Of a stretch of DNA of 39,551 nt, positions 21,818-23,657 are shown piece after piece. The DNA is from an uncultured Planctomycetia bacterium (lineage in GTDB: Bacteria; Planctomycetota; Phycisphaerae; Phycisphaerales; SM1A02), in assembly GCA_937919205.1 (NCBI GenBank), contig CALFOZ010000231.1, forward strand, positions 1 to 39,551, written 5' to 3'. The notes beneath the pieces are model-generated. The model saw only the letters and a list, made by a program, of their open reading frames with translations. It was not told the DNA's origin and did not search any database. Every line of letters begins with the position of its first letter. Within the stretch, counting starts at the first letter, position 1. The position numbers and the translations under genes were made by a program.

Positions 21818-22468
21818 TCAACCTCGTTTGATCAATGTGGCCGAATGAAATGGCCGGCCTTCGCGGCGATATTTGCGCTCAAAATTAGTTCCCACCACTT
21901 CGCCTTCGCCCGCGCTGGCTGGCGGCGCGAATTCCTTGCGCATGAATAAATCATCCGACGCCGCGATCAACTCCTCATACCACTTCCATAAATCATCGTG
22001 GTCACTGACCAGGCGCACTTCTCCATTGGCTTGCAACACACGGTGAAATTGCTCCAAAGAAGCGCGCTGTAACACGCGGCGTTTGTGATGGCGCGCCTTG
22101 GGCCACGGATCGCTGAAGTACAAATGAATAATTGCCACGCTGTGATCGGCAACCCAATACGTGATGAACTCCACCGCGTTGGCGTACAACATGCGCACAT
22201 TTTTCAGCGCATGCCGGCTCACGCGATCAGTGGCGTGTCGAAAAAATTCGCCCGCATTCTCCACGCCAAGAAAATCCCGCTCGGGACAACGCGTGGCTTC
22301 TTGCACTAGAAAAGTTCCCTTGCCAGATCCAATTTCAATTTCATAGGGGCGCGCAGAATCACGCCCGCTGAAAAAATACTCCGCTCCAATCTTGCCACTC
22401 TCTGGAGTTGGTAAATCCCTTTGATTCCAGCCCCATGGCTTTAAATCTGGAAGCGCTCGATCGGTCAA
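21818..22468 (-). CDS. trmB: tRNA (guanine-N7-)-methyltransferase
   Basis: EIEIGSGKGTFLVQEA, FLGVE, HLYFSDPWPKARHHKRRVLQ, LVSDHDDLWKWYEE. Confidence 0.95.
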   Translation of the reverse strand: MTDRALPDLKPWGWNQRDLPTPESGKIGAEYFFSGRDSARPYEIEIGSGKGTFLVQEATRCPERDFLGVENAGEFFRHATDRVSRHALKNVRMLYANAVEFITYWVADHSVAIIHLYFSDPWPKARHHKRRVLQRASLEQFHRVLQANGEVRLVSDHDDLWKWYEELIAASDDLFMRKEFAPPASAGEGEVVGTNFERKYRREGRPFHSATLIKRG

Positions 22469-22473
22469 TGGGT

Positions 22474-23262
22474 TTATCGACTGGAAGATTTTTGAGCGGC
22501 GGTCTTCTTGGACTTTGCAGACGCGCTCTTAGAGGAAGCCTTGGTGCTGGCAACTTTCTTGGCGGCTGGCTTCTTCGCGGAAGTTTTCTTAACGGTCGCC
22601 TTCTTCGTGGAAGCTTTCTTGGCGGTCGTCTTCTTTGTGGAAATTTTCTTAGCGGTCGTTTTCTTTGTGGAACTTTTCTTAGCGGGCGTCTTCTTCGTTG
22701 ACGACTTCGCTGTGGCCATTGTGGCGCGGGAAACATCCTCAACAGCGATCATGTGTAGCGCGGACTTGCCCTCGCCATGCTTCTTGCTTGGCATGCTTTC
22801 GCCCGCGGATTTCGCTGGCACATTGCGCCGCCACTCCACACGCGGCGCGTCGGCCCACATTCCTTCAAGGTCATACCACGCGCGCTGGCCTGGCTCGAAC
22901 AAATGAACCACCACATCCACAAAATCAGCGGCGATCCATGTTCCATTGGTGTCGCGGTCGCGCTTCCACCGCGGCGATCCGTGTTGCGCGCCAAAAGCCT
23001 TCAACTGATCGGACACCGACTTCATTTGTCGATCGCTTGTTCCACTGACAATCACCAAATACTCGCACAGTTGATTGCGCCCGCGCACATCGATCAACAC
23101 AACCTGCTCGCATTTCAACTCAGAGGACAACCGCGCCAACTCAATGGCGAACTCGCGAATCACTTTCGGATCGCCTTGACTTTGCGAGCGCGAAAGATTC
23201 GCAGACCCAACACTATTCTTCGCGGCCTGCGTCAGGCCTGCGGAAGAAACTTCAGTTGTCAC
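22474..23262 (-). CDS. rsfS: Ribosome silencing factor RsfS with Lys/Ala/Thr/Ser-rich C-terminal tail
   Basis: Iojap/RsfS core [39 protein letters not shown]...[32 protein letters not shown], followed by a KKTTAKK-type tail. Confidence 0.92.
22552..22701 (-). repeat. Five tandem 30-bp (decapeptide) repeats inside rsf[51 protein letters not shown]
   Basis: Direct count of residues 188-237 of the 262-aa ORF shows a 10-aa period, visible as a 30-bp period in DNA. Confidence 0.9.
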
Positions 23263-23549
23263 TCGCTGCGACCCCGCGACATGCCACGACCACCAGCGGT
23301 CTTGGATGACTTGCCCTTGGCTCCGGCCTTCACGCCCGCGCTACCTTCACGGCCAGTCGCCGCGCCAGGTCGACCCAATTCAATTGGCGGAGGACGACGC
23401 ACTTCACGTCGCTTGCGCTCGGAAGGCTTCTCGTAGTACTGGCGCTTCTTGACCTCTTTGGTCAGGCCTTCCTTCTCGCAGATTTTTTTGAAACGTCGCA
23501 GAAGTTGTTCCGCGGATTCACCAGCTCTAGCCTTGATACGAATCGCCAT
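23259..23549 (-). CDS. rpsU: 30S ribosomal protein S21 with basic C-terminal extension
   Basis: [52 protein letters not shown]; 4-bp overlap with rsfS. Start corrected from the track start at 23591. Confidence 0.92.
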
Positions 23550-23657
23550 AGTTTCAGTAGTCCTTTGTGGGTTAAAGTTAAAGAGCCGCACATCATGACC
23601 GTTTTATGCCTTTGCCGCAAGCGGTCATGCGAATGATTTTTCAGCCATAATGAGTCC

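Follow-up and report, generated by a model that had tools for sequence, protein, structure and literature searches.

The question raised by this locus is why an RsfS (Iojap) protein, a starvation factor that is nearly always compact, ends in a long lysine-rich tail. We analysed the gene in the window, that is, the whole stretch of 39,551 nucleotides, and compared it with its homologues in related genomes. The features that bear on the question are the following.

21818..22468, minus strand: trmB-like tRNA methyltransferase gene, directly downstream of rsfS (Pfam Methyltransf_4; neighbours in relatives)
22474..23262, minus strand: rsfS, 262 aa, GTG start, TAA stop (ORF list, Pfam RsfS, homologues)
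23259..23549, minus strand: rpsU (bS21), directly upstream of rsfS (likely start MAIRIK; neighbours in relatives)
23197..23262, minus strand: N-terminal extension, RsfS residues 1-22 (alignment and codons)
22855..23139, minus strand: RsfS core, residues 42-136 (Pfam, genome search, S. aureus RsfS mapping)
22768..22824, minus strand: fast-evolving linker, residues 147-165 (pairwise comparisons, alignment)
22735..22767, minus strand: conserved island of 11 residues, residues 166-176 (alignments)
22477..22734, minus strand: lysine-rich tail, residues 177-262 (composition; HC2 profile match)
22552..22701, minus strand: five S(T/A)KKxxxKKx decapeptides, residues 188-237 (period-30 tandem repeat)

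Analysis of the core indicates that it looks functional. The Pfam RsfS profile (PF02410) is matched over positions 3-98 of 98 on residues 42-136 (E 1.6e-22, 80 bits against a curated cut-off of 21.6), so the core is complete, as a sequence-only reading of this DNA had claimed. In S. aureus RsfS the residues that contact uL14 are E70, W77, D81 and Y98 (PMC7125091; PMC9503621). A gapless mapping with an offset of 32 (query 49-143 to 6sj6 17-111) places W77, D81 and Y98 on the conserved W109, D113 and Y130, and E70 on D102, a conservative change. RsfS sits on uL14, adjoining bL19 and 23S H95, and blocks subunit joining (PMC7125091). As the contact residues are kept, the protein most likely still acts as an RsfS, to which a polycation has been added. 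It shares with other RsfS/Iojap proteins (PF02410; 2o5a, 6sj5, 6sj6, 4wcw, 7bl2-7bl5) the complete domain, the uL14-contact residues and the single copy, only one RsfS gene having been detected by the genome search of the source genome; the solved bacterial chains that it matched are 105-152 aa long, whereas the present protein is longer by 22 residues at the N-terminus and by about 115 at the C-terminus.

The GTG start overlaps the stop codon of rpsU by 4 bases and, according to alignment and codons, is common to all nine tailed homologues described below; a gap of a few bases separates rsfS from trmB. The 22-residue N-terminal extension is likewise present in all nine and absent from the tail-less congeners, in which an ATG stands at the equivalent of residue 23. 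The dN/dS of this extension (23197-23262) exceeds that of the core and also varies more. The upstream gene matches Pfam Ribosomal_S21 on 23259-23591, and the bS21 protein has a C-terminal extension that is basic and G/K/R/S-rich in the source genome and G/R-rich in the tail-less congeners. The rpsU-rsfS-trmB cluster (21818-23549) was also found in tail-less congeners wherever the contig reaches far enough.

The tail was earlier placed at 22477-22725, which corresponds to residues 180-262. This span is part of the tail, but the non-core part starts before residue 180, since the linker and the island (147-176) come after the core, whose end lies near residue 146. In our alignments, eight of the nine tailed species have an island of the KSPLEMIAVVD type separating the linker from the tail. 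Residues 177-262 contain 31% lysine and no acidic residue, and the whole stretch after the core, of about 115 residues, has a net charge of about +29; for the entire protein a charge of +28.8 was calculated at pH 7, and for the tail-less congeners one of -1.4 to -2.4. The decapeptides, described in the same reading as five (S/T)(T/A)KKxxxKKx units at residues 188-237, are indeed exactly five, but their first residue is S in every unit. Tandem Repeats Finder independently detected 4.8 copies of a 30-base unit (22555-22698; score 183, with 83% matches). The KKxxxKK spacing exceeds what composition would produce, because nine occurrences were observed in residues 177-262, whereas 5000 shuffles of the same residues averaged 0.68 and never gave more than 5. 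The AlphaFold models were too poor to be informative, also on the island: mean pLDDT was about 45 in two runs, as the input comprised the only eight usable sequences, all near-identical, and a predicted strand at residues 169-173 in run one did not appear in run two.

To describe the distribution of the tail we surveyed 186 RsfS loci within one phylum: 90 distinct ones came from a set of genomes made up of the window's own and its relatives, 80 were the better-scoring ones among the matches listed for the whole phylum, and 16 were taken from around genome G257; the genomes were mostly MAGs, and a tail was called lysine-rich at at least 10 lysines and at least 20% lysine. Of the 101 genomes in the first of these sets, RsfS was found in 94, and no match was obtained in two members of the window's genus (G003 and G008). 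Nine of the 14 genus genomes with RsfS carry the tail (G000, G002, G005, G007, G009, G011, G013, G014 and G015), and the proteins of the other five (G001, G004, G006, G010 and G012) end 17-18 residues past the core. Among the 186 loci, no lysine-rich tail was found outside this genus apart from two unrelated basic tails. One, in G257, is 194 aa long and P/A/K/R-rich, with a charge of about +24 on its last 86 residues; the other, in G108, has 77 aa with SKAETA repeats and a charge of about +9. Their sequences suggest that basic tails may have been gained repeatedly on RsfS.

In the tree of RsfS cores the nine tailed proteins form one clade against everything else (UFBoot 100). Within it, G014, the tail of which comprises 59 aa and lacks decapeptides, branches as sister of the other tailed species with a support of 80 in this unrooted tree. 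The simplest history would be a single gain of the tail, followed by growth through tandem duplication. A scan of public MAG records recovered seven tailed loci, labelled uncultured bacterium, Planctomycetia, Planctomycetaceae or Phycisphaerales; one of these MAGs originates from deep Lake Baikal. The lysine-rich tail of RsfS is thus real and conserved in one group of freshwater planctomycetes. Absence from all close relatives, which the sequence-only reading had linked to an assembly or strain oddity, was not observed: the tail is kept in nine genomes, with five tail-less congeners. We rejected such an artefact, given these nine genomes and the seven loci in public MAGs of several projects. 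We found no report of a tailed RsfS among open-access papers. What is noteworthy is that a usually compact protein has acquired, in one clade, a tail of about +29 whose charge persists through changes of the repeats, and the presence of tailed and tail-less sister species in one genus offers a natural experiment on disordered basic tails of ribosome factors.

The repeats indeed change, as had been suspected. The repeat unit has ten residues in the window, five in G013 (VSPKK, VSSKK) and four in G009 (KKSS), and both repeat number and tail length differ between species, even between near neighbours (134 aa in G002 and 126 aa in G007). Across the eight long-tailed species the tail measures 106-134 aa, with a net charge of +28 to +35, and its composition is kept. 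In four close pairs, simple Nei-Gojobori estimates, which are rough on repeats, gave a dN/dS of 0.11-0.33 for the tail against 0.00-0.09 for the core, so the reading frame of the tail is constrained. A wrong frame or an antisense gene was rejected, the tail being in frame with the core and its dN/dS below 1; antisense ORFs overlapping 22408-22906 were taken as by-products. Between G000 and G013, lysines were kept at 26 of 27 sites and other residues at 21 of 49 (p = 1.5e-6), an excess that is partly favoured by the aligner, since repeat alignment prefers lysine matches. It was seen in the more diverged pairs and was not significant in the closest ones. Together these comparisons provide moderate evidence that selection acts on the charge of the tail.

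The resemblance to H1-like nucleoid proteins, also pointed out earlier, was borne out by profile searches. The HC2 profile (PF07382) matches the RsfS protein with E 4.7e-9 and 37.1 bits, under the curated cut-off of 40, and in the genome search the tail reached 42.2 bits and was the only stretch over the cut-off in the source genome. This survey of the source genome used the HC2 profile and the KKxxxKK pattern. Of the nine tailed species, seven have a tail that the profile detects (E up to 0.01), over the cut-off in the window's only, and the tail-less congeners gave no match. The likeness lies in lysine-pair repeats rich in A, S, T and K, and the match follows from this lysine-rich composition; HC2 proteins are stand-alone nucleoproteins, whereas the present stretch is the C-terminal part of RsfS. 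A weak second HC2 match (C241:29259-29450) was dismissed as a sign of a separate HC2-like gene, as it lies opposite a longer VASPP-repeat frame. HU was found in 16 of the 16 genus genomes, tailed or tail-less, so the tail is no stand-in for a missing nucleoid protein, and replacement of HU was rejected. Replacement of a missing hibernation factor was also rejected, the S30AE (HPF-type) family being present in 15 of the 16. Polyphosphate kinase occurs in the source genome and in 14 of the 16, and none of the three tracks the tail among the genus genomes.

How could such a tail act? The reading that we prefer, and to which we give about an even chance, is a functional RsfS whose disordered basic tail grips rRNA electrostatically. 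The core would still bind uL14 on the 50S subunit and block subunit joining, and in one clade a C-terminal tail, disordered and strongly basic, would have been added to it. From its anchor point at the RsfS site, on the intersubunit face, this tail would follow rRNA that is exposed on the 50S or on a late pre-50S particle, and by electrostatics it would make RsfS bind more tightly or stay bound for longer; its length and positive charge would matter and its exact repeats would not. Because RsfS adjoins bL19 and 23S H95, rRNA is the nearest polyanion (PMC7125091). A flexible basic tail anchored on RsfS should therefore meet rRNA first, and this is why we prefer the electrostatic grip. We infer that the tail binds rRNA and thereby affects anti-association, and an extra affinity for rRNA, or for polyanions in general, appears more economical than DNA binding and nucleoid coupling.

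A serious rival, though a somewhat unlikely one, is nearly neutral growth, in which tandem duplication extended a short basic C-terminus into low-complexity sequence that is tolerated and has no specific role. The confinement of the tail to one clade, the fast-evolving linker and the rapid shifts of repeat unit and number, even between the near neighbours G002 and G007, are all what it would predict. It fits less well with the constraint on the tail in close pairs, with a charge and residue set kept across the eight long-tailed species, with the lysines retained between G000 and G013, and with the fact that no frameshifted or truncated tail occurs within the clade.

We regard as unlikely a more far-reaching proposal, that a hibernation factor uses an acquired H1-like tail to link idle 50S subunits to the chromosome or to polyphosphate granules, coupling ribosome parking to nucleoid or granule organisation in starved cells. 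Should the tail indeed connect ribosomes with DNA or polyphosphate, it would bring together two responses to starvation that are as a rule investigated separately. Starvation polyphosphate could bind the lysines and so recruit or release RsfS, itself a starvation factor, and the kinase is indeed encoded in the source genome; it is equally present in tail-less congeners, however, and therefore gives no co-occurrence signal. We consider this the least probable of the readings. Both versions have precedents in the Pseudomonas proteins AlgP and PhaF, whose H1-like tails are linked to starvation or storage granules and are thought to connect granules to DNA, AlgP being associated with polyphosphate granules under nitrogen starvation (PMC9239181). 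These proteins also join a folded or helical N-terminal part to a long lysine-rich repetitive tail, but their tails are KPAA-rich, a feature absent from the KKxxxKKx units with their few prolines, and the partner domain is unrelated. A tail that binds chromosomal DNA and holds RsfS-bound 50S at the nucleoid would agree with the HC2 match, but that match reflects composition and is under the cut-off on the protein. HU and a separate 20-residue lysine-rich ORF are present in 16 of 16 genus genomes regardless of the tail, and a ribosome-anchored tail would meet rRNA first. DNA binding and the coupling of hibernation to the nucleoid, both suggested by the sequence-only reading, are thus not supported, and we consider the nucleoid version very unlikely.

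An electrostatic grip on rRNA is favoured over these alternatives because a charge of +28 to +35 is kept despite differing repeat units and total lengths, and because RsfS of G257 and G108 carry independent basic tails. Against it, the tail-less congeners manage without a tail, and clade-restricted, repeat-driven growth also fits a nearly neutral low-complexity expansion. Comparable additions are known from other proteins: eukaryotic core ribosomal proteins have independently gained lysine-rich low-complexity tails, although they are not bacterial hibernation factors, and actinobacterial topoisomerase I carries C-terminal lysine repeats on an otherwise ordinary bacterial enzyme, a domain reported to raise processivity (PMC7398561). 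The latter is a DNA enzyme of a family unrelated to RsfS.

The pattern search also detected a second KKxxxKK array in the source genome (C209:11212-11313), which by its codons has acidic residues between the lysine pairs and is of mixed charge. The 20-residue lysine-alanine ORF found throughout the genus lies at about C143 2166-2198 in the source genome, where its sequence is MAKKKKKAAKKKAAKKTSKKR; in tail-less species it is of the MAKKKKAAKKKAAKKKSR type. A GGAGCC motif precedes its ATG by a few bases, and in several genomes an inverted repeat, GAAGCCGGC, follows the stop codon. This tiny ORF looks like a conserved H1-like mini-protein.
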